Positions 6,354-29,733 of a DNA stretch of 38,274 nt are shown one piece after another. Below the pieces are notes generated by a model. The model was not told the DNA's origin. It worked only from the letters and a program-made list of their open reading frames with translations, and ran no database searches. Origin of the DNA: a virus. The DNA lies in IMG/VR virus record IMGVR_UViG_3300042988_001208, positions 1 through 38,274 of that record. One strand, given 5' to 3'. How positions within the stretch are numbered: the first letter of the stretch is position 1; every line of letters starts with the position of its first letter. Both the position numbers and the translations under genes were made by a program.

Positions 6354-7871
6354 TCAGAAAACCCGTTCGCCGGCAAAGGCGTAGTTCGGGCCGGCGGTGC
6401 CTGGGTGGAATGTGCAGCCGAGCGAGTCGGCTATGTCCGGCGAGAAGCCGAGGCGTTTTTTCATTTCATCCTTGCTCTCGACCACGATCCGGCCGCTGCT
6501 GTCATGCTTGTACTTGACCGACGCAAGTTCGCCGGCGAGGTCTTGGGCGATATCGGCATCGACGCCCTCGAAGCTCGGTTCGTCGCAATGCAGCCAATCT
6601 GCCATTACGAGCCAAAGATAATCGCGCAGCGTCTTGCCCTGGGCTTCGTCTTTGCCGGTTTGCCGGAACGGGGCGGACTCGGCGACGTTGACCTCAATGA
6701 CCGGCTGTTCGAGTTCCTTGAGGCGGTCGGCGACGCCGGCGCCGACTCCGATTACGTCCACATAGATGCCGGTCGCGTTGAACAGCTGCCGCATCGCCAC
6801 GGCCCGGCCGGAGGTTTGCATCGTGTCTTCTTTGGCGTGGATTTCGGCGTGCAGTAGGTTCGCTCCCTGGCGGACGGTGTAGACGGTGCGGTCGCTGCCG
6901 AAGCGGGCAACGTCGATGCCGAGTCGAATGTCGGCGGTTGCCTGCTCCCGCTGCCGCTCGCGCTCGATGGCCGCCTCCGCCCACTCAATCGAAATGAGCA
7001 CGTCGTCATCTTGCTTTGGAAATTCCCCGTCGGCGCGCACCCGCACGACGTTGCTGTTCTCGCCCCACTTGCGGACCAGCTTCACCCGGTATGCCGGGTC
7101 GACTAGCGGGCTTTCGCCGCTCTTGAGGTGGACCGTGGTGAAGTCGCCGCGATCCTTCCGGTGACTGTCGGCGAAATATCCGGTGGTCCGTGTCGGGTTC
7201 GCCAGCATCAAGAGGCGGGCGCCTTGGCTCGATAGCGCGCCTTCCGCCACCTCGAAAACCTGATCGGCGACGCCCGCGGCTTCATCGACCACGAACATGA
7301 TATTGCCGGCCTGGTTGTGATGGACGAGCCCGCGGCCGTCGTCGGTGATTTCAACGTCGCTGGCGTGGAATCCTTGCAGCGCGTCGGGGTTGTCTTTGCT
7401 GCTTGTCCGTGCCACCGCGAACCACTCGCCGCGTGCGCTCGGGTCATAGATGCGGTCCTGGGTGTAGCGGAACACGTTGCCGAGCCAAAATGCCGGATGG
7501 TCGCCGCGCTTCGCGCTCAGCGTGTCCGACGCGCGCAACCACTTGGCAAGCTCCGCCCATAGCACGTCGCGCAACTGGTGCCCGGTCGGCGCCGTGCAGG
7601 GAATCTTGCAATAGTCCCGGGTTTCGAGGAACCATAGGACGAGGCCCGCGGTGCATCCGGTCTTTCCGGTGCCGTGCCCGCTGCGCACCGACACCTTGGC
7701 GCCCTCGGGTTGTATCGCGTCGATGATCTTGTTCTGCTGCCACGTCGGCTTCATGCCGAGGCGCATGCGCAGGTAGAGGCCCGGGTCGTCGCGCCATTCC
7801 TGGCGGAGTTCCATGTACGCATCCAGATCGCGCTGGATCGCGTCGAACTGGATTAACCCGGGGGCGCCCAC
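6354..7871 (-). CDS. terL: Terminase large subunit (packaging ATPase/nuclease)
   Basis: TerL powers DNA translocation into the prohead and cuts the concatemer. The 505-residue product shows a Walker A motif SGHGTGKT at residues 64-71, a Walker B segment IMFVVDEAAG at 191-200, and an RNase H-like nuclease domain with GIDVARFGSDRT (D320), VDVIGVGAGV (D372) and SPDIADS (D479/D482) as likely metal ligands. The length is normal for the family. The start is a GTG lying directly after the TerS TAA stop. TerS lies upstream and the portal downstream, the usual order. Confidence 0.95.
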   Translation of the reverse strand: MGAPGLIQFDAIQRDLDAYMELRQEWRDDPGLYLRMRLGMKPTWQQNKIIDAIQPEGAKVSVRSGHGTGKTGCTAGLVLWFLETRDYCKIPCTAPTGHQLRDVLWAELAKWLRASDTLSAKRGDHPAFWLGNVFRYTQDRIYDPSARGEWFAVARTSSKDNPDALQGFHASDVEITDDGRGLVHHNQAGNIMFVVDEAAGVADQVFEVAEGALSSQGARLLMLANPTRTTGYFADSHRKDRGDFTTVHLKSGESPLVDPAYRVKLVRKWGENSNVVRVRADGEFPKQDDDVLISIEWAEAAIERERQREQATADIRLGIDVARFGSDRTVYTVRQGANLLHAEIHAKEDTMQTSGRAVAMRQLFNATGIYVDVIGVGAGVADRLKELEQPVIEVNVAESAPFRQTGKDEAQGKTLRDYLWLVMADWLHCDEPSFEGVDADIAQDLAGELASVKYKHDSSGRIVVESKDEMKKRLGFSPDIADSLGCTFHPGTAGPNYAFAGERVF

Positions 7872-8312
7872 TTAGGTTCCGCCGCCCTTCTTTGATTCCC
7901 GGTGCGCCGCGAGCAGCGACGAGAGGCCGCCGCCCTGATATTCCTGCTGCCCGGTCGGGTCCGTCGGCGCAATCTTGGTCGGTGCGTTCATGCCGGTAAT
8001 CGCTGCGCGCTGCCGCTGAATGACGATGATCCGGTCGAAGGCGCCATTGTTGCCGGCGATGGCCTTCGGCCAGAACACCCGCTGAAGGTGGTCGAGGCGC
8101 GATAACTCGAGTTGCTGCAACACGGCGACGTCCTGCTGCGTCTCGAACTTGTACTGCGCCAACTGCTTCATCTTCGTTTTGCTGATGGTCGATTTGGAGC
8201 ACCCGACCTGCTCGCAAATCACGTCATACTCGACCCCCGCGCGCAGCAGTTGGATGATCTTCGCGTCGCGCTCCGCCCGCTTGATCGCGTTTTTCGAGTG
8301 CGGTTTAGCCAT
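7872..8312 (-). CDS. terS: Terminase small subunit (DNA recognition)
   Basis: This 146-residue protein starts with a basic helix and a helix-turn-helix (about residues 14-48, including EYDVICEQVGCSKSTISKTK), followed by a helical middle (LQQLELSRLDHLQRVFW) likely to mediate oligomerisation and a flexible C-terminus ending KKGGGT. This architecture, next to TerL, fits a small terminase that binds the pac or cos site. The ATG overlaps the end of the methyltransferase C-half by 8 bases, and the stop abuts the TerL GTG. The pac/cos site itself cannot be identified by eye. Confidence 0.85.
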   Translation of the reverse strand: MAKPHSKNAIKRAERDAKIIQLLRAGVEYDVICEQVGCSKSTISKTKMKQLAQYKFETQQDVAVLQQLELSRLDHLQRVFWPKAIAGNNGAFDRIIVIQRQRAAITGMNAPTKIAPTDPTGQQEYQGGGLSSLLAAHRESKKGGGT

Positions 8313-8937
8313 TGCCGGCCTCCGGCTCCGCGGTCAGCACCGGCCCGAAGTCGCCGGCGGCCTGGTGCGGGTCGCCCTTTGCGAACACCAGCAGTTTTTC
8401 GTGTTGCTGTAGCAGCGCGCGGTGCTCGGCGAAATGCTTTGCCAGGTGGTCACCGAGTCCCTTGATCGGGTCGGTGGCGTCCGGCTCGCCTTTGGCGAAC
8501 ACCAGCATGTTCTGATGCCCCTTTGCCAGCTTGCGGCTCGCGCGGAACATATTGCCGGCCCGCATGGCGAGGCTGCCGTTCGGGGTTATGAGCACCGCCT
8601 CGTTGTAATACCGCAGGCCGGCGGCCTCGCACGCGGCGATGGTGTCGCCGACGAAGTTGCGATAGAACCCTTTGCGGTCGCGCACGTCGCCGACGATGAA
8701 CACGGCGAAGCGGTTTTCACGGAGGCGCGCGGCGGCCTTGGCGATGATTTCCCGGTATGCCGCCATGAACTCGGGATAGTCCATGTTGCTGATATCGGCC
8801 GGGTCGTCGCTGTAGACCTCCAGGTCGGCGTAGGGGGGGCACGTGAAGATCAGGTCGACCTGTTCGTCCGCCGGCATCACTTCGTCCATGCGTCGGCTGT
8901 CGCTGGCGATCCAGCGGGGGGTAATTGGCTCGCTCAC
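8305..8937 (-). CDS. DNA methyltransferase C-terminal half (CPPY motif), split gene
   Basis: This 210-residue protein carries the catalytic half of an amino-DNA methyltransferase. It starts MSEPITPRWIASDSRRMD and has DLIFTCPPYADLEVYSDDP with motif IV CPPY at residues 33-36, then MDYPEFMAAYREI and FIVGDVRDRKGFYRN. It has no AdoMet-binding FxGxG motif. That motif sits in the gene at 9907-11403, on the far side of the PP-loop gene. In the phage ParB-methylase family as I know it, both motifs are in one protein, so this looks like a split enzyme. The GTG start forms a GTGA overlap with the PP-loop stop. The C-terminus repeats a short block (MLVFAKGEP, then LLVFAKGDP). Target and activity are unknown. 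Confidence 0.8.
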   Translation of the reverse strand: MSEPITPRWIASDSRRMDEVMPADEQVDLIFTCPPYADLEVYSDDPADISNMDYPEFMAAYREIIAKAAARLRENRFAVFIVGDVRDRKGFYRNFVGDTIAACEAAGLRYYNEAVLITPNGSLAMRAGNMFRASRKLAKGHQNMLVFAKGEPDATDPIKGLGDHLAKHFAEHRALLQQHEKLLVFAKGDPHQAAGDFGPVLTAEPEAGNG

Positions 8938-9917
8938 CGCGACTCCTCCGGTTCAATGAATGCCTCGATGGCGCGCTGTCGGGTCCAGGCGGTTCCGCCG
9001 AAGACCTTTTCTGCGTTGTTGTGGAGCACGCGCTCCGCGTGCGTGATGGCGTCGGTGTCCGGGGGCAGGATTCCAAGCCGCTGCCCGTAGATGATTTCCT
9101 GCGCGCACTTGTAGCAACTGCCGCAGCGCCCGGGGCGGATCGTCTCGGCGCCGAACTTGTTGACGTTGCCGGTATGCAGGTTTCCCTTGTACCGGGCCGG
9201 GGTCATGCAACTGCCGATCAGGTCCCACAACCCGAGTCCGTGCGGGGCGATCACCGCGTAGCTTTCGGCCTCGGAGCGGAGCACGCGGGTGTCGACCTCG
9301 ATTGCTCCGCGCGCCATCGCCTTGTATAGCCCGGCCGCGGCGTCCATGACCTCGATCCCGTCCGAAAACCCGGCCGAGTAAGTCAGGCGCCGGGCGTGGT
9401 CCCGGTATTGGGTGCCGAGGGCATATCGGGCAATGCCGTACCCCATGCCGTAATCCACCATCAACCCGAGGATGGTTGCGTTCTTTGCCGGGTTCTCGAT
9501 GTGCGGTTGCTTCGCCGGCTTGACCTTCAAGATGTGCAGCGCGCACCCGAGCGCGGTTGCAATGTCGATGGCGCGGTCCTTTTCGCCGGGATATGCCGGG
9601 TTGATGCCGGCGATGTAGAACAGGCTGATGGCCCGCCCGGCTGCCTGTTCCTTGAGCGCCGCGGCGAGGCTGTCTTTGCCGCCGGTGCAGGCGATCATCG
9701 AGTGAGTCGCCGTCGTCGGTGCGCCCTGGTCCTGGTCCGCGGCCTCGGTGGTGATCGCTCCCGCCGCTCCGGCACGCAATAGGCCCAACAGCGTCGCCGC
9801 CTCGCTCGGCAGTTTCGGGTCCGTCGCCGGGAGCGGGTCGGTTGCCGCGAAGTCGAACAGCGTTGCCGCCGCGCGGCCGATTGGCCCGGCCTGGTATCCG
9901 CGCAGGTCAATTCGCAT
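8934..9917 (-). CDS. PP-loop ATPase, QueC / PAPS-reductase-like
   Basis: This 327-residue protein has the PP-loop nucleotide-binding motif CTGGKDS at residues 77-83, the adenylating P-loop of QueC, DndC and PAPS-reductase relatives. Downstream come SAGFSDGIEVMDAA (181-194) and, near the C-terminus, four cysteines: C237, C265, C268 and C271, the last three in a CGSCYKC cluster. This resembles the zinc site of QueC, where the first cysteine is closer. The first 70 residues are an Ala/Pro-rich extension. The ATG at 9917 follows GGAG by 6 bases and overlaps the preceding gene by 11 bases. No other queuosine genes are visible, so a preQ0 pathway is not implied. A role in DNA base modification with the flanking methyltransferase halves is inference. 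Confidence 0.8.
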   Translation of the reverse strand: MRIDLRGYQAGPIGRAAATLFDFAATDPLPATDPKLPSEAATLLGLLRAGAAGAITTEAADQDQGAPTTATHSMIACTGGKDSLAAALKEQAAGRAISLFYIAGINPAYPGEKDRAIDIATALGCALHILKVKPAKQPHIENPAKNATILGLMVDYGMGYGIARYALGTQYRDHARRLTYSAGFSDGIEVMDAAAGLYKAMARGAIEVDTRVLRSEAESYAVIAPHGLGLWDLIGSCMTPARYKGNLHTGNVNKFGAETIRPGRCGSCYKCAQEIIYGQRLGILPPDTDAITHAERVLHNNAEKVFGGTAWTRQRAIEAFIEPEESR

Positions 9918-11403
9918 AATGCACTCCGACCGTCGGGGGTTGCTTGGTTTCCGGTGCCGGCTGTCGCGTCCGCGGCGTGACGGGCTTGTTCGCGCTCTCC
10001 TCCTCGCGCTCGCGCGCGAATGCGCTGGCGACCTCTCTTGATGGGAAAAACATCGCATCCCGGCCCTCGATAACATCGGCCCGCGCCTGGTCGAACTGCT
10101 CTTGCCCGAATAGATTGACCAGGCCGCCCCTCATGGCGTCGATCAGCATTGGCCCGCTGCCGGCCGCCCCCTTGCAGAACGACGTCGGAAGCTGTGCCTT
10201 ATCGTGCATCACCAGCTTTCCGGTGCTGTTGAAGATGAACGGGTATAGCTGGCACGACGCGGGCTTGTCTTCCGCCGACAACGAACACCCATGGTCGCCT
10301 AGGTGCTCGCATACGTTGCCCGGGTATGCCTTCGCCGGCCAGGTGGTTTTGTGCCGGCAGCAAACACCGCCGCACCCGCCCGGCTCGATGATGTGCGATA
10401 CGGTGCAGTTGAACTTTTTGACGGCCCACGCGGCGGACATTTCAATCGGCGCCGGCTTTTCGTCGCCGCTGGTCGCGCTTTCCTCGATCTCTTTCCAGTT
10501 CTTTCGGTTTGCCGCGACTTGCTCCGCGCGCAGGTCGATGCCGGTATAGCTGTACCCGAGCAGGCCCGCCACCACGCCGCGAACGCTGCCGCCGGCAAAT
10601 GGATCCAGGATCGCGCCGCCCGGGGGTGCGAACCACCGATATGAAATCTCCGCCAGCACGGGGTCGAATACCGAATCGCCGGCGAGGGTTATTTCGTCGG
10701 GGTATGTCTCGGCGAACTCCGCCCAGGTGTAGGTCCGGCCATCCTTTTGCTCGAGTTCGCGCTTCCGGTCCAGCACGTCGGGCGGTTGCGCGCTGATGCT
10801 GTAGGTCATGCCGGCCTTGCCCTTGTCGCCGTCCTGGCCGCGGCCTAGCTCGCTGCGGATGCCCACGGATAGCCAAAGACGCTTGCGGTCCGCCCAATAG
10901 CCCTGGCGGGCGTCGAGCACGCTGAACGGCGGGATGATGAACTGCTCGGTGAGGCTGGATCGGATGGACGCCTGCTCCGCCCCCTTCGCGCCGGGGTCTT
11001 GCCCGCGGAGGCTGTCGAGGAAGTGGCCGAGGTTCGTGTTCTCGACCTCGATGCCGGCGAGCAGCGCAATCAGCGCGTCGTCGTCTTGATACGCGAGCCC
11101 GGTGATCGGGTCGAGCGACGCCAGGGCGATGCGTTCCTCGCGCTCTGTAAGCTCCACGTAAGTCACGGGAACCTCCGCCTCCTCGCGGCGGATTGCCAAC
11201 TCGACCCGGGCGTGCCCGTCGATCATGTGCCCGGTGGTCCGGTTCACGATGACCTGCTGTATCCAGCCTATCTCGGTCAGCGCGCCTTCGAGGGCGTCGA
11301 GTTGCGACTTGGGGTGCCGTCGGAAGTTGAACGGGTTTGCGAGGAGTTGGGTCGGGTCTTCGATCCCGTGCCCTGCGATGCGATTGCGGAATTGTTGTTC
11401 CAT
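9907..11403 (-). CDS. ParB-like / methyltransferase N-half fused to YkgJ-like Cys-rich domain
   Basis: This 498-residue protein has three parts. Residues about 10-130 form a ParB/sulfiredoxin-like domain with the DGHAR motif (62-66). Residues 155-305 form the AdoMet-binding half of a DNA methyltransferase: PPFSVLDARQGYW, then motif I ILDPFAGGS (265-273), then YTGIDLR. There is no DPPY or CPPY motif, which is in the separate gene at 8305-8937. Residues 330-455 hold a cysteine cluster (C333, C344, C348, C349, C365, C373, C384, C410) with the GGVCC ... CSL ... SCQLYPF layout of YkgJ-type zinc/iron-chelating domains. The C-terminus is a disordered Pro/Thr/Glu tail. It is the first gene after a sigma70-like promoter with an embedded operator. 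A weak AGGG precedes the ATG. Confidence 0.82.
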   Translation of the reverse strand: MEQQFRNRIAGHGIEDPTQLLANPFNFRRHPKSQLDALEGALTEIGWIQQVIVNRTTGHMIDGHARVELAIRREEAEVPVTYVELTEREERIALASLDPITGLAYQDDDALIALLAGIEVENTNLGHFLDSLRGQDPGAKGAEQASIRSSLTEQFIIPPFSVLDARQGYWADRKRLWLSVGIRSELGRGQDGDKGKAGMTYSISAQPPDVLDRKRELEQKDGRTYTWAEFAETYPDEITLAGDSVFDPVLAEISYRWFAPPGGAILDPFAGGSVRGVVAGLLGYSYTGIDLRAEQVAANRKNWKEIEESATSGDEKPAPIEMSAAWAVKKFNCTVSHIIEPGGCGGVCCRHKTTWPAKAYPGNVCEHLGDHGCSLSAEDKPASCQLYPFIFNSTGKLVMHDKAQLPTSFCKGAAGSGPMLIDAMRGGLVNLFGQEQFDQARADVIEGRDAMFFPSREVASAFAREREEESANKPVTPRTRQPAPETKQPPTVGVHYAN

Positions 11404-12674: not shown

Positions 12675-12964
12675 TGCCTTCGTTCGAGGTTAACTTCGAA
12701 GTGTTCTGTGCCAAGTGCGGCGCCGGCATCTGTAACCTTGCCGACGGCCGCAACTCCCGTGGTCGGGGCGAGCCGCAGGTAACGGTCGCCCCCTGCGAAA
12801 ATTGCCTCGATGCGGCGCGCTCGGAAGGCGCCGACGAAAAGGAGAGTGAAAAGGACGCCGAAATCGCCGCGCTCGAAGACTCTCACGCCGACGAAGTGCG
12901 TGCTTTGTCCGATACCATCGACGCGCTGCGGATCGAGCTTGCTGATGCGAGGGCTTTGGCATGA
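12674..12964 (+). CDS. Zinc-ribbon plus coiled-coil small protein, 96 aa
   Basis: The N-terminus has two cysteine pairs, CAKCGAGIC and CENC (about residues 12-45), laid out like a zinc ribbon. From about residue 48 it is a highly charged helix (SEKDAEIAALEDSHADEVRA) ending in heptad-like DTIDALRIELADARALA. The ATG overlaps the previous stop by one base, with AAAGGAG upstream. It is probably a zinc-stabilised dimeric accessory protein. The function is unknown. Confidence 0.65.
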   Translation: MPSFEVNFEVFCAKCGAGICNLADGRNSRGRGEPQVTVAPCENCLDAARSEGADEKESEKDAEIAALEDSHADEVRALSDTIDALRIELADARALA

Positions 12965-13782
12965 CCGCCGCCCTGGTGAAGTCCGTCTCCATCGACAACC
13001 TGCTCAACCAGCGCGCGGCCGTTCTCGACCGCCTGGCCGCGGTCAGGGTCGCCCTCCTCGAAATCGACGCTCTCGCTGCCGCCATCGAAGCCGAGGCGCC
13101 GCGGCGGTCGTTCTACTGGTCCGCCTCGGGTGCCCTGGTCAATTCCCGGGGCGACGCCTACAAGCTCCGCATCACCAGCGACGATGGCATTGCCGCCGCC
13201 ACGGTTGAGTTCGACCGCATGGCCTGGCGCCACCTGATGCACGCCTCGGGGCTCCGCTCGCTTATGGACGCGACCGCCCGCGAGAAGTGGGAAAAGTCTC
13301 TCGACGGCGGCGACTTCCCGCCGCTCACCCGCGAGAACATCGAGGCCACATTCGCTCGCCTGTACGACGCCCGGGGCGATATGTTCGAGCGCGGGGTGAT
13401 CGAGGTCTTCCGCCGGCTGTCCTGGTGCTACAAGACCAACCTGCCGCACAAGTTCGGCAAGCGCATCATCTTGACCGGCATCACTGGCACCTACGGCAAC
13501 CGCTCTTGCGACTACCTCGACGACCTGGTTCGCGTGCTCCATGTGCTCGACGGCAAGCCGGAGCCGGATCATCGGCAGGGCACTTATGCCGTGCTCTCCG
13601 CGGCCGGGCTCACGTACCAGGACCGCCGGGGCGTCGCCGAAACCGAGTATTACTCGATCCGCACGTTCAAGAACTTCTCCGGCCATGTCACGTTCAAGCG
13701 GCTCGACCTGATCGAGCAAATGAACCGGATCATCGCCCGGCACTACCCGGGCGCGCTGCCGCCGCCGACGCGCTCCGCCTAG
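12961..13782 (+). CDS. DUF4942 family protein (273 aa)
   Basis: This 273-residue protein matches what I know of DUF4942, a family found in phages, plasmids and accessory regions without a firmly assigned activity. Signature stretches are WRHLMHASGLRSLMDATARE, ENIEATFARLYDARGDMFER and GVIEVFRRLSWCYKTN. A coiled coil occupies residues about 5-45. The start overlaps the previous gene (ATGA). It is the last gene of the rightward operon, and its TAG shares the four bases CTAG with the stop of the opposing DUF1643 gene, leaving no room for a terminator. Confidence 0.82.
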   Translation: MTAALVKSVSIDNLLNQRAAVLDRLAAVRVALLEIDALAAAIEAEAPRRSFYWSASGALVNSRGDAYKLRITSDDGIAAATVEFDRMAWRHLMHASGLRSLMDATAREKWEKSLDGGDFPPLTRENIEATFARLYDARGDMFERGVIEVFRRLSWCYKTNLPHKFGKRIILTGITGTYGNRSCDYLDDLVRVLHVLDGKPEPDHRQGTYAVLSAAGLTYQDRRGVAETEYYSIRTFKNFSGHVTFKRLDLIEQMNRIIARHYPGALPPPTRSA

Positions 13783-25447: not shown

Positions 25448-25888
25448 ATGAGCAATCTATTTCTTGGGATCGTTAAAGTCACGAAGACGGTTCGCATCCC
25501 TATTGCCGCCGAAAATATAGAGCAAGCGGAAGCGTTTATGCGGTCCCCTGAAAGAAAATGGATTGGCGACGGGGGGCTGGACGTAAAGGGGACGCTGGAG
25601 GTGGTTCGCGTTACACATGTCACCGACCCAAATGAGTGCCGAGGGTTTGACTCTGATGTGCTTTGCTGGTGGGCCGGCGCCCCCAAAGACGACGACGAAT
25701 TTACTCTTAGTGATGCATATTTCAGAGAGCGACTTGTCGCGTGCTTTCACCCCGAGTTAACTGAAATATCCCAAGAACAGGCGGATCAATTCTGGCGCGA
25801 CTACGAACAAGAAAAAGAACGGTCAAGCAGAGAATTTCATTCGGCCATCGAACATTTTTGCGAAGGTGCCGGGGTTCCCCGTGGCTGA
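25448..25888 (+). CDS. Uncharacterised acidic protein, AT-richer insertion (146 aa)
   Basis: The product begins MSNLFLGIVKVTKTVRIPIA, with an alpha/beta first half and an acidic, helical second half (ISQEQADQFWRDYEQEKERS). Its base composition and codon choice (ATA, TTA, AGA, AAA) are clearly less GC-biased than those of both neighbours, pointing to recent acquisition. GAGGTG lies 6 bases before the ATG. It overlaps the DUF5131 start by 8 bases. No family is recognised; a moron or anti-defence gene is possible. Confidence 0.7.
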   Translation: MSNLFLGIVKVTKTVRIPIAAENIEQAEAFMRSPERKWIGDGGLDVKGTLEVVRVTHVTDPNECRGFDSDVLCWWAGAPKDDDEFTLSDAYFRERLVACFHPELTEISQEQADQFWRDYEQEKERSSREFHSAIEHFCEGAGVPRG

Positions 25889-26810
25889 CAACTCGAAAAT
25901 CGAATGGACCGAAGCGACCTGGAACCCCATCACCGGGTGTTCGGTCGTCTCCGCCGGCTGCCGGCATTGCTATGCCATGAAGCTCGCCGGCACCCGCTTG
26001 CAACATCACCCGTCGCGCGCCGGGCTCACGGTGGAATCTGCCGCCGGTCCGGTCTGGAACGGCCAAGTCCGCTTCAATGAGGAATGGTTGCGCCAGCCGC
26101 TGCAATGGCGCCGGCCGCGGAAAATCTTTGTCTGCGCTCACGGCGACCTGTTCCATGAGTCGGTGCCGGACGAGTGGATTGATCGGGTGTTCGGCGTGAT
26201 GGCCGTCGCCAAGCACCACACCTTCCAAGTGCTCACGAAGCGCGCCGGCCGGATGCGCGACTACGTTGCCGGGCTAGGCAACGCTTTCCCCCGGCTTGAG
26301 CGCGGCGCCCGCCTGGTCGGCTACACGCTGAACTTCGAGGGGTTGCCGATGGTGCGGTTCCCGCTGCCGAATGTATGGCTCGGCGTCTCCGTCGAAGACC
26401 AGGCCGCGGCCGACGCGCGCATTCCGCTGCTGCTGCAAACTCCGGCCGCCGTGCGCTGGATCAGCGCGGAGCCTTTGCTCGGGGCGGTCGATCTTCCGGG
26501 GTTGTTTTTTTACGGGGTCGAGCGCAATGGTGGTGTCGTCCCGTTGCGCGAAAAAGGACACCCACAACTTGATTGGGTCGTCGTCGGCGGCGAGTCCGGC
26601 ACCAACGCGCGGCCGATGCATCGGGCCTGGGCTCGCTCGCTGCGCGATCAATGCGCCGCTGCCGGGGTGCCGTTCCTGTTCAAACAATGGGGCGAGTGGG
26701 CTCCGGCCGCCAACCCCAACCGAATCGACTTCGAGCGCGTCGGCAAGCGTGCCGCCGGTCGTCTCCTCGATGGCGTCCAGCATGACGGGTATCCGGAGGC
26801 CCGGCCATGA
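25881..26810 (+). CDS. DUF5131 (phage Gp37/Gp68) family, radical-SAM-like
   Basis: MADNSKIEWTEATWNPITGC followed by SVVSAGCRHCYAMKLA is the start of the Gp37/Gp68 (DUF5131) family. The three cysteines C20, C27 and C30 (C-x6-C-x2-C) suggest a 4Fe-4S cluster like that of divergent radical SAM enzymes. Further family marks are PRKIFVCAHGDLFHESVPDE, HTFQVLTKRAGRM, NVWLGVSVEDQAAADAR, and near the end WVVVGGESGTNARPMH and FLFKQWGEW. The substrate is unknown. GTG at 25881 fits the usual N-terminus; GTG at 25866 would add five residues. Confidence 0.85.
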   Translation: MADNSKIEWTEATWNPITGCSVVSAGCRHCYAMKLAGTRLQHHPSRAGLTVESAAGPVWNGQVRFNEEWLRQPLQWRRPRKIFVCAHGDLFHESVPDEWIDRVFGVMAVAKHHTFQVLTKRAGRMRDYVAGLGNAFPRLERGARLVGYTLNFEGLPMVRFPLPNVWLGVSVEDQAAADARIPLLLQTPAAVRWISAEPLLGAVDLPGLFFYGVERNGGVVPLREKGHPQLDWVVVGGESGTNARPMHRAWARSLRDQCAAAGVPFLFKQWGEWAPAANPNRIDFERVGKRAAGRLLDGVQHDGYPEARP

Positions 26811-27983: not shown

Positions 27984-28202
27984 ATGCCGCGCGCTGCCCG
28001 CCCCGTCACCGCTCGCGCCGTCGGGTCAATCGCCGGGTTCGCCGACGAGGCGATTGCCCGGTTGCTGATCGAGCGCGAGCGGTCGAGGCCTGCCCTGGTT
28101 GCCGTTCCTGCGGCCGATGTTGCCGGTTCTCCCGCTTCCATACCTGCCGGGTATAAACTCCCGGCCCATGATCCGCGCCGTTCTCTATCTCCGGTCGAGT
28201 AA
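27984..28202 (+). CDS. Small protein overlapping recombinase start, 72 aa
   Basis: The ATG follows CCAGGGGAAAACTGAACC. The product is Ala/Arg-rich (MPRAARPVTARAVGSIAGFA, then ARLLIERERSRP) and helical in the middle. Its last 35 bases overlap the serine recombinase start in another frame, which suggests coupling. The function is unknown. Confidence 0.5.
   Translation: MPRAARPVTARAVGSIAGFADEAIARLLIERERSRPALVAVPAADVAGSPASIPAGYKLPAHDPRRSLSPVE
28140..28154. promoter_or_regulatory. Palindrome ATACC-N5-GGTAT before the recombinase
   Basis: A perfect 5-bp inverted repeat spaced by 5 lies 14 bases before the recombinase ATG and overlaps a TATAAA (28152-28157). It could be an operator on a local recombinase promoter. 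Confidence 0.3.
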
Positions 28203-29733
28203 GGACCGGGCCGACGTATCCATCGACGCTCAGCGCCGGGCCTTGCAGGAAATGGCCGAGGCGCGCGGTGTCGCCATCGTCGGCGAGTTCGCCGATGCGG
28301 TCGAATCCGGCAAGGACGACGACCGCCCGGGGTTCCAGAACCTGATCGCCGCTATCCGGTCGCCTTCCCGGGCCTGGGACCATATCCTGGTTCTGGACAC
28401 CGCCCGCGTTGCCCGCCGGCGTGCCCTCGGCATCATCTTCGAGGAACACGAATGCAAGAAGCGCGGCGTGCGCATCCTGTATCGGTCGCTGCCTGAGTCC
28501 GACCCGATCACCGAAATGCTGCTCAAGTCCATCCTGCAAGCGATGGACGAATGGCACTCGTTGACGTCCCGGGTGAAGGGACTCGCCGGCATGTCGGAAA
28601 ACGTCAAGCAGGGGTTCCGCGCCGGCGGTCGGGCTCCGCTCGGGTATGTGCTCGAATCAGTCGACACTGGCTCGGTGCGCGACGGGGCGCCGGTGCTCAA
28701 GTCTCGGCTTGCGCCTGGTCCTGATGCTCCGGCCGTCAAAGACTACCTCACCGCCCGCGCCGCCGGCATCCCTCGTTCGCGCGCCCTGGCGTCGTCGGGG
28801 CTGTCTTCGCCGGTGTCGTCGCTGGTATCTCTCGAGCAAAACGCTCTCACGTACGCTGGCGCGACGGTCTGGAACCGGCACGCCGAACGGGTCGATGGCG
28901 GGTATGTCGGCGGCGCCAAGGTCCGCCCGCGGTCGGAATGGGTCATCCAGCGCGATACGCACCCTGCGCTCATTACCTGGGACCAGGCCGAGGCGATTCT
29001 CGCCGCTGCCGCCTCGAAATCGGGCCGCAGGGACGCGCGCAAGGACGGCCGGGTGTATCTCCTCGGCTCGCTGCTGTTCGACCCGACCGGCGCCCCCTGG
29101 CATGGTGACGCGGGGTCGTATCGGCTCGGGAAGGGTCCGCGGGTTGCCGCCGAGGCGGTCGAGTCTGCCGTCGTTGCCTTGACGGTCGCCGAGCTTCAAT
29201 CCGAGGAGCGGGCCAAGGCCATCGCCGAGCACTATCGCCGGCTGTCGTCGCCCGGCCGAAATGGATCCAAAGAGGTTGCCGTTTCTCGGCGGAAGGTTGC
29301 CGATTTGGACAAGCGCATCGCTCGCCTGGTCGCCCTGGTGTCGCAAACCTCGGCGCCGGACGCGCTGCTGCGTCAGGTGGAGGCTATGGAAGCGGAGCGC
29401 GCGGCCCTGGTTGCCTCGGTCGATGCGTCGGCGTCGGAGGCGTCCGCGCTGCGGTCGCTGCGGTCTGTATCTGCGGCCGACGTGCGGCGTATGCTTGCCG
29501 GGCTTGCCGACGACCTGGCCGGCACCGATCCGGCCGCCCTGCGCGACGTTCTCGGCTTACTTGTCGAGCGGGTCGTTCTCGACCCGGCGACCTTCGAGGC
29601 GGTCGTTCATTTCCGCCTCGCCCCCGCTCAGAAAGCGGGGGTTGACTGGCGTCCCCACGGGGATTCGAATCAATCCCCGGTTTTCAGCTTCCGGTCTTCG
29701 GTCGCCGTTCGACACAACCGGCGGGCCGCTTAA
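28168..29733 (+). CDS. int: Large serine recombinase (phage integrase)
   Basis: The N-terminal resolvase domain starts MIRAVLYLRSSKDRADVSID, with the nucleophile most likely S11 (S10 adjacent), and continues DDRPGFQNLIAAIRS and HILVLDTARVARR. A recombinase domain (about 165-300: GRAPLGYVLESVDTGSV, WNRHAERVDGGYVGG) and a long coiled coil (SRRKVADLDKRIARLVALVS) follow. The usual zinc-ribbon cysteines are absent; LLGSLLFDPTGAPWHGDA occupies that place, as in a proteobacterial subgroup. The 521 residues and the temperate context argue for the phage integrase. The last 30 residues are encoded by hairpins and a tRNA-like sequence, a candidate attP. Confidence 0.87.
   Translation: MIRAVLYLRSSKDRADVSIDAQRRALQEMAEARGVAIVGEFADAVESGKDDDRPGFQNLIAAIRSPSRAWDHILVLDTARVARRRALGIIFEEHECKKRGVRILYRSLPESDPITEMLLKSILQAMDEWHSLTSRVKGLAGMSENVKQGFRAGGRAPLGYVLESVDTGSVRDGAPVLKSRLAPGPDAPAVKDYLTARAAGIPRSRALASSGLSSPVSSLVSLEQNALTYAGATVWNRHAERVDGGYVGGAKVRPRSEWVIQRDTHPALITWDQAEAILAAAASKSGRRDARKDGRVYLLGSLLFDPTGAPWHGDAGSYRLGKGPRVAAEAVESAVVALTVAELQSEERAKAIAEHYRRLSSPGRNGSKEVAVSRRKVADLDKRIARLVALVSQTSAPDALLRQVEAMEAERAALVASVDASASEASALRSLRSVSAADVRRMLAGLADDLAGTDPAALRDVLGLLVERVVLDPATFEAVVHFRLAPAQKAGVDWRPHGDSNQSPVFSFRSSVAVRHNRRAA
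29621..29641. other. 8-bp stem-loop in recombinase 3' end
   Basis: CCCCCGCT and AGCGGGGG form a perfect stem around a CAGAA loop. Only TTG follows, so it is a poor terminator; it may protect the mRNA end or be part of the attachment region. Confidence 0.5.
29647..29670 (-). other. Candidate attP core resembling the 3' end of tRNA-Glu
   Basis: Read on the minus strand, this is a T-loop (TTCGAAT), T-stem half (CCCCG), acceptor strand (TGGGGAC), G and CCA, all in the right order and spacing. From memory it matches 21 of 23 positions of the 3' end of E. coli tRNA-Glu. The match stops 5' of the T-loop, where ATTGA interrupts the stem. There is no tRNA body. Confidence 0.5.
29658..29684 (+). terminator. 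Possible weak intrinsic terminator
   Basis: CGGGGATT and AATCCCCG pair around CGAATC, followed by GTTTT. The stem is good and the T-run short. It overlaps the attP-like core and lies inside the recombinase frame, so termination could be partial. Confidence 0.35.

Follow-up and report, generated by a model that had tools for sequence, protein, structure and literature searches.

We analysed a 38,274-base IMG/VR virus record (IMGVR_UViG_3300042988_001208), a metagenomic contig whose whole length is hereafter called the window. Direct reading located three minus-strand genes in one coupled row, followed by terminase genes. The first and third genes each encode half of a DNA methyltransferase of the phage ParB-methyltransferase family, and the second encodes a PP-loop protein that is QueC-like by predicted fold and motifs. 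The features of the row are as follows, with the basis for each in brackets.

9907..11403, minus strand: gene 1, 498 aa; ParB domain, S-adenosylmethionine (AdoMet)-binding methyltransferase half (motifs I and II) and Cys-rich domain, weakly DUF3109/YkgJ-like (translation, PHROG, local profiles)
11050..11352, minus strand: ParB/sulfiredoxin-like domain of gene 1 (phrog ParB families, local profile)
10486..10953, minus strand: methyltransferase N-half in gene 1, LTEQF..PPFSVLDARQGYW, then motif I, strand 2 and helix B (local profile, E 1e-61)
10585..10611, minus strand: motif I of gene 1, ILDPFAGGS (direct reading)
10057..10440, minus strand: Cys-rich domain of gene 1, CGGVCC..C..L..GC...DKP.SC.LYPF...CKG (profile, E 6e-59)
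9924-9928, minus strand: Shine-Dalgarno-like CGGAG of gene 2 (direct reading)
9907..9917, minus strand: stop of gene 1 overlapping the start of gene 2 by 11 nt, ATGCGAATTGA (direct reading)
8934..9917, minus strand: gene 2, 327 aa; predicted QueC/Cap9-like PP-loop ATP pyrophosphatase (AlphaFold2, Foldseek, relatives L077-L099)
9669..9686, minus strand: P-loop of gene 2, TGGKDS (alignments)
9105..9209, minus strand: four Cys of gene 2, C237, C265, C268 and C271, as C(x)27CxxCxxC, a variant of the QueC zinc site (invariant in 17/17 relatives)
8943..8949, minus strand: Shine-Dalgarno-like GGAGGAG of gene 3 (direct reading)
8934..8937, minus strand: stop of gene 2 overlapping the start of gene 3 by 4 nt, GTGA (direct reading)
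8305..8937, minus strand: gene 3, 210 aa, GTG start; catalytic methyltransferase half, motifs III and IV (PHROG profiles)
8830..8844, minus strand: motif IV of gene 3, TCPPY, with Cys at the usual D/N/S position (direct reading, relatives)

In gene 1 the landmarks of the AdoMet-binding half occur in the order ILDPFAGGS, GIDLR, EQVAANRKNW; in gene 3, WIASDSR is motif III and TCPPYADLEVYSDD is motif IV. The start of gene 2 was placed at the ATG at 9917 rather than at 10076, where the open reading frame (ORF) begins. A first reading made from the sequence alone (the sequence-only reading) had described the genes as coupled by overlapping stops and starts, which is accurate: the overlaps measure 11, 4 and 8 nt, the last between gene 3 and the gene for the terminase small subunit. 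That reading had also put both a Cys-rich piece and a QueC-like PP-loop gene between the two halves; fold and motifs bear out the second of these, but the Cys-rich domain is not a separate piece, being fused to the first half.

One methyltransferase in two genes

Both halves belong to one family. In a PHROG profile search, gene 1 matched phrog_498 (E 3e-37), annotated as DNA methyltransferase, and phrog_12517 (E 6e-37), as did gene 3 (E 1e-64 and 2e-59, respectively); matches at this level (E 1e-37 to 1e-64) are far beyond chance. Along the phrog_12517 profile, gene 1 spans positions 52-154 and gene 3 spans 160-306, so that the two align end to end and the break falls where one half would run into the other, as the sequence-only reading had proposed. 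Its assignment of the AdoMet-binding half to 9907-11403 and of the catalytic half to 8305-8937 agrees with both the motifs and these matches. Gene 3 also matched Pfam N6_N4_Mtase (E 6e-5), under the family cut-off.

Intact relatives do carry both motifs in one protein and in this order; with this and the end-to-end alignment, the sequence-only reading withstood the refutation that it had itself proposed. Cultured phages of Enterococcus, Listeria, Mycobacterium, Erythrobacter, Haloarcula and other hosts have such one-gene forms, as do hundreds of IMG/VR contigs; homologues without an insert (n = 127) have 65-81 residues between motifs I and IV, and 173 of 177 relatives have CPP in motif IV. In the window the ParB domain and motifs I and IV are all found, in the family's order, but spread over genes 1 and 3; the single polypeptide otherwise typical of PHROG 498/12517 is thus lacking there, and also in three further loci (L081, L176, L247). 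The window therefore resembles the described phage ParB-methyltransferases (ParB plus PF01555; Enterococcus phiFL3A gp36, Listeria B054 gp77) in domains, motifs, order and full-length alignment of its halves, and differs from them in having two genes where they have one, the halves being separated by a Cys-rich domain and a QueC-like gene. Among annotated "DNA methylase" genes, those of Stenotrophomonas phage StM171 (L076:5968-6717) and its relatives Suso, HXX_Dennis and QH16 comprise the ParB half only; they are 59% identical to the ParB half of the window and have no methyltransferase motifs.

A broken gene in a metagenomic contig might be a decayed gene or an assembly artefact. The family offers an instance: L071, a close relative, has an in-frame internal deletion by which ParB residues 1-70 now run into the C-terminal tail of the catalytic half; the two meet at a shared AMRA stretch, and the 154-aa remnant (L071:2098-2562) lies directly before the terminase genes, so gene loss does occur. 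In the window, however, the motifs are all intact and both overlaps and ribosome-binding sites are present. The ratio of non-synonymous to synonymous substitution (dN/dS, Nei-Gojobori) was 0.25 and 0.28 for the two halves against L101, and against L081 it was 0.26 for the N-half, 0.46 for the C-half and 0.64 for the PP-loop gene; values below 1 point to purifying selection on the split genes. A further argument comes from L081, an independent contig (its locus was also fetched as L181) with the same break, a PP-loop gene within it, its own ATGA overlap and Shine-Dalgarno-like sequences; its N-half and C-half are 71% and 66% identical to those of the window. L247 shows a bare split at this loop, where a stop is followed by GAGAGGA and ATG and no insert is present, although sequencing error is possible in that case. 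The sequence-only reading had held that the split is not decay; the shared layout, the bare split and the dN/dS values all favour that view, and decay or artefact appears very improbable, having been largely refuted by L081.

A recurrent insertion slot between helix B and strand 3

The break in the methyltransferase lies between helix B and strand 3. Exactly at this position, L001, Pseudanabaena phage Pam4 and Erythrobacter phage ZS04 have about 265 extra residues, which Pfam identifies as a PALP domain, of the fold-type II enzymes dependent on pyridoxal 5'-phosphate (PLP). The PLP lysine and the GSG loop are invariant in these inserted domains, which resemble D-cysteine desulfhydrase and 1-aminocyclopropane-1-carboxylate deaminase. 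The nearest relatives of the window (L101, L102 and L100; 59-72% identical) likewise carry an in-frame PALP at the slot, and the methyltransferase N-half of the window is 63-71% identical to those of L081, L100, L101 and L102. The insertion site is identical in the PALP-bearing proteins (Pam4, ZS04, L100-L102) and the window; they differ in that the former hold a PLP enzyme in frame within one polypeptide, and the window a different enzyme out of frame.

In an AlphaFold2 model of L101, the motif I strand occupies residues 265-268, strand 2 residues 286-291 and helix B residues 294-309; next come the insert (311-578), strand 3 (580-584) and strand 4 (599-604), the last bearing CPPY. Confidence was mostly above 90 in the inserted domain and below 50 in the linkers, with an overall predicted template modelling (TM) score of 0.46, and the placement of PALP relative to the methyltransferase is therefore not predicted. 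In Rossmann methyltransferases the turn between helix B and strand 3 points away from the pockets for AdoMet and the base, and could thus plausibly accommodate an insertion or an interruption of the chain.

When all fetched loci were classified by profile, 184 fused genes had no insert, 37 had PALP inserted and two had PALP plus the Cys-rich domain (L125, L201); after removal of near-copies, these numbers were 147, 27 and 2. The split genes were broken around a PP-loop gene (L081), the Cys-rich domain and a PP-loop gene (window), PALP (L176) or nothing (L247). For 52 of the 147 non-redundant genes without an insert, a PALP gene was found within 3 kb, with or without a Cys-rich domain or PP-loop gene. 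In the sample gathered with the methyltransferase query only (n = 113), eight had PALP inserted and 19 had PALP nearby. The helix B/strand 3 turn is thus a recurrent insertion slot, something that the sequence-only reading had no means of seeing. Because related phages place a PLP enzyme at the very spot where the window has its QueC-like gene, we suggest that the slot is exchangeable, accepting enzymes that decorate phage DNA with groups bulkier than methyl.

The order in which the slot was filled was approached with trees and approximately unbiased (AU) tests on a reduced set, in which inserted PALP was kept distinct from adjacent PALP. In the methyltransferase tree, the window and L081 fall among relatives with inserted PALP, and the sister of L081 is the PALP-bearing L101 (96/91). 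In the PP-loop tree, the sister of L081 is L078 (97/94), the PP-loop gene of which lies downstream of an intact ParB-methyltransferase. Constraining the window and L081 to group together was rejected, though weakly, on each of the two trees (AU p 0.049 and 0.041). A PALP domain was probably replaced by a QueC-like gene, and probably twice, although these statistics are borderline and recombination could mimic the pattern.

The QueC-like protein, the Cys-rich domain and neighbouring genes

Single-sequence scans with the window PP-loop protein found no relatives. A profile built from a two-sequence alignment of this protein with that of Staphylococcus phage Alsa_1 brought the carriers to 22 IMG/VR loci and Alsa_1, and a later profile round added L180. 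No member was found in the plasmid collection, and the genome collection yielded one degraded remnant only (L179), so that the family is essentially viral. In nearly all of these loci the gene is preceded, at 0.7-2 kb and on the same strand, by an intact ParB-methyltransferase; this does not hold for L088/L089, L098 (a fragment), L094, L097 and L179. In Alsa_1 the PP-loop gene sits between a methyltransferase gene and a stand-alone PALP gene. It is annotated there (L077, OR354820, 5942-6702) as two pieces in different frames, which may reflect a frameshift, an intron or a sequencing error, and the adjoining PALP enzyme (6695-7423) lacks annotation.

The AlphaFold2 model of gene 2 (predicted local distance difference test score 86.6) was matched by Foldseek in the PDB first to Cap9 (9nto; TM 0.78 by target) and then to QueC (0.61-0.72), and a structure search of a viral library returned phage QueC proteins; identity in structure alignments with solved or viral QueC-like proteins was 11-22%. 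The P-loop is TGGKDS in the window and SGGKDS in most relatives. Compared with the QueC signature (PMC13329287), the invariant residues of the PP-loop family agree in part, with most of the ATP and Zn motifs kept: the P-loop is present, N(x)5E stands for Q(x)5E and NPxKN for VPxRN, and (F/Y)SD retains the aspartate of YPDC. The four invariant cysteines are spaced more widely (C(x)27CxxCxxC in the window) than in the zinc site of QueC, C(x)8CxxCxxC, or in QatC, C(x)19CxxCxxC (PMC13329287), the latter sharing the long first spacing with gene 2. Pfam QueC was matched by 13 of 18 family members at E <= 0.1 (best 2.6e-6), the window protein not among them. Taken together, fold, the SGGxDS-type P-loop and the P-x-K/R-N motif liken gene 2 to QueC (PF06508), especially to Cap9 of the type IV cyclic oligonucleotide-based antiphage signalling system (CBASS) and to QatC. 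Unlike the QueC family at large, the gene 2 group adjoins phage ParB-methyltransferases; queD and queE, which belong to canonical preQ0 synthesis, were not recognised beside the PP-loop gene in the window or its relatives. In its available part, the 2026 survey of the QueC family does not mention a group linked to phage ParB-methyltransferases (PMC13329287).

Homologues of the Cys-rich domain were found in eight loci (L125, L126, L128, L129, L130, L138, L145, L201), all beside or within PALP-bearing loci; they were aligned over the domain alone. The nearest Pfam family, DUF3109, was matched by seven of the eight (best E 3e-6); the window domain scored 17.4 bits against a curated cut-off of 33.5. 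The only PDB profile matches were to G-protein beta-5 (E 0.0075) and were taken as chance. The domain very likely binds metal.

Further accessory enzymes were seen in single or few cases. A GNAT domain is fused to the C-terminus of the L084 ParB-methyltransferase; in L176 the first half carries PALP and the second (6804-8753) is fused to an aspartyl/asparaginyl hydroxylase-type domain; and a radical S-adenosylmethionine (SAM) gene directly follows the PP-loop gene in L086 (8933-9721), L097 (4536-5651) and L098 (6372-7520). A conserved protein of about 170 aa also lies beside the PP-loop gene (L085:1948-2457, L086:7357-7881, L090:2250-2729, L095:3784-4329). Its L095 copy matches no Pfam family. 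With its GSGE loop it is perhaps a minimal PALP derivative, though profile comparison with PALP gave an hhalign probability of just 33.

Elsewhere in the window, on the plus strand, a DUF4942 protein (12961-13782) also matches phrog_6263, named DNA methyltransferase, though outside any recognised catalytic motif. A DUF5131 protein (25866-26810, E 2e-96) belongs to a phage family that we take to resemble radical SAM enzymes; it has no link to the split locus. A resolvase-type serine recombinase (28099-29733) suggests that the phage is temperate.

What the split enzyme may do

The explanation we favour, with a probability of roughly 0.55, is that a two-piece ParB-methyltransferase marks phage DNA and that a QueC-like accessory extends the mark by activating a carboxylate with ATP. 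The products of genes 1 and 3, each one half, would fold together after translation into a single Rossmann AdoMet enzyme, with the chain broken at the loop on the side away from the active site. That loop would act as an enzyme slot, holding PALP in frame in the relatives and a QueC-like gene out of frame in the window phage and L081; the gene would be split because its occupant is out of frame. The rebuilt enzyme would move a group from AdoMet onto a base of phage DNA. The QueC-like protein would then use ATP to activate a carboxylate, borne either by the substituent of the base or by a small molecule, and joining of the activated carboxylate to an amine or ammonia would give a hypermodified base, most likely one that blocks host restriction. 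The Cys-rich domain would bind metal and assist this second step. We infer the target base, chemistry and purpose, and from gene association also the reassembly and the modification beyond methylation that the sequence-only reading had proposed.

Natural and engineered split DNA methyltransferases exist (PMC3404938). ATP-dependent carboxylate activation is described for QueC (PMC13329287), Cap9 (PMC13279940) and, with a different ligase, CmoY (PMC12783734); in the last system the carboxymethyl handle produced by CmoX is extended by an ATP-dependent ligase of the AsnB-like kind (PMC12783734). CmoX/CmoY and the window share an AdoMet-dependent DNA enzyme, an ATP pyrophosphatase-type ligase and ParB domains nearby. 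They differ in that CmoX is a C5-methyltransferase using carboxy-AdoMet, with an AsnB-like ligase (PMC12783734), whereas the window has an amino-methyltransferase-like fold, its motif IV CPPY lying in a PF01555-type and not a C5-type enzyme, together with a QueC-like protein, and PALP in its relatives. No CmoA was found among the larger window ORFs, which the scan covered. M.AquI and M.EcoHK31I likewise build one DNA methyltransferase from two polypeptides, but both are C5 enzymes, the former broken in the variable region before motifs IX-X and the latter with only motif IX apart, and unlike the window neither has an enzyme gene described in its gap (PMC3404938). Fusions of ParB and methyltransferase domains have already been described (PMC12704722, PMC12783734), the role of the ParB domain in the phage proteins being given as unknown (PMC12783734). 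In the open papers searched, we found no description of a split of this family or of a PALP, QueC-like or Cys-domain insertion; Iyer et al. 2013, the likeliest source of an earlier mention, lay outside our coverage.

Several observations weigh against the explanation we favour. In the methyltransferase-only sample, 85 of 113 genes had no accessory gene detected nearby (contig ends truncate some of these loci), which leaves simple methylation as a possible role of the core enzyme. The window PP-loop protein by itself reached no Pfam family, and it is without the tyrosine of the QueC YxQxHxxE motif and the exact YPDC motif; the Cys-rich domain, as noted, is assigned only weakly to DUF3109/YkgJ-like proteins. 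The chief rival builds on the first of these points: a plain two-subunit methyltransferase whose loop, or gene border, tolerates cargo (PALP, PP-loop, Cys-rich domain) that acts elsewhere. The probable double entry of the PP-loop gene is cargo-like, and L247 is split around nothing. The cargo is not random, however, since members of these PALP and PP-loop families turn up repeatedly within, fused to or beside one methyltransferase family in unrelated phages, and PALP forms an in-frame domain of the methyltransferase protein. We regard the passenger alternative as less likely than the favoured explanation, though the likeliest of the rivals.

Two others concern the chemistry of gene 2. If the PP-loop protein were a thiolase of the TtuA/MnmA type whose cysteines carry a cluster, sulfur would be transferred onto the base or its substituent. 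By sequence the top PDB matches of the family profile are indeed TtuA (E 4e-10) and MnmA, covering the P-loop half only; NCBIfam TtuA and LarE match 11 of 18 family members, and the PALP fold resembles D-cysteine desulfhydrase. By structure the comparison reverses, with TM scores by target length of 0.78 for Cap9 and 0.72 for QueC against 0.3-0.4 for TtuA, and the C(x)nCxxCxxC site and the 13 of 18 Pfam matches are those of QueC; sulfur transfer accordingly seems unlikely. Still less credible is that gene 2, like Cap9 or QatC, conjugates 7-deazaguanine to a partner at its N-terminus, the second methyltransferase half being one candidate, and so controls the activity of that partner. The nearest solved structure is Cap9 caught with a conjugated protein, and an aspartate is conserved at the base-recognition position of QueC and Cap9 (PMC13279940). 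The partners of Cap9 and QatC begin with glycine, however (PMC13279940), whereas gene 3 begins MSEP and its L081 counterpart MTPE, and the scan of window ORFs turned up no queD/queE-type gene.

A bolder possibility, which we hold to be doubtful, is that the ParB-methyltransferase is not mainly a methylase and instead transfers an amino-acid-bearing group, for example 3-amino-3-carboxypropyl from AdoMet, with the loop as a socket for editing enzymes: PALP, the QueC-like carboxylate ligase, the GNAT acetyltransferase of L084, the Asp/Asn-type hydroxylase of L176 and the radical SAM neighbour. The idea arises because these accessories all act on amines, carboxylates or C-H bonds. The near-invariant motif IV cysteine is compatible with an unusual active site but is not proof of one. 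If the amino-acid-group proposal were true, one phage enzyme family would generate a combinatorial set of unknown DNA bases.

Returning to the favoured explanation, many phage ParB-methyltransferases now carry a plain-methylase annotation. A slot on the back of the enzyme that takes up a PLP or a QueC-like enzyme predicts new hypermodified DNA bases, with testable enzyme sets and phages that include the isolates Pam4, ZS04 and Alsa_1. It would also provide an amino-methyltransferase-type example of a DNA-modifying enzyme that is split in nature, and a phage branch of the QueC superfamily.

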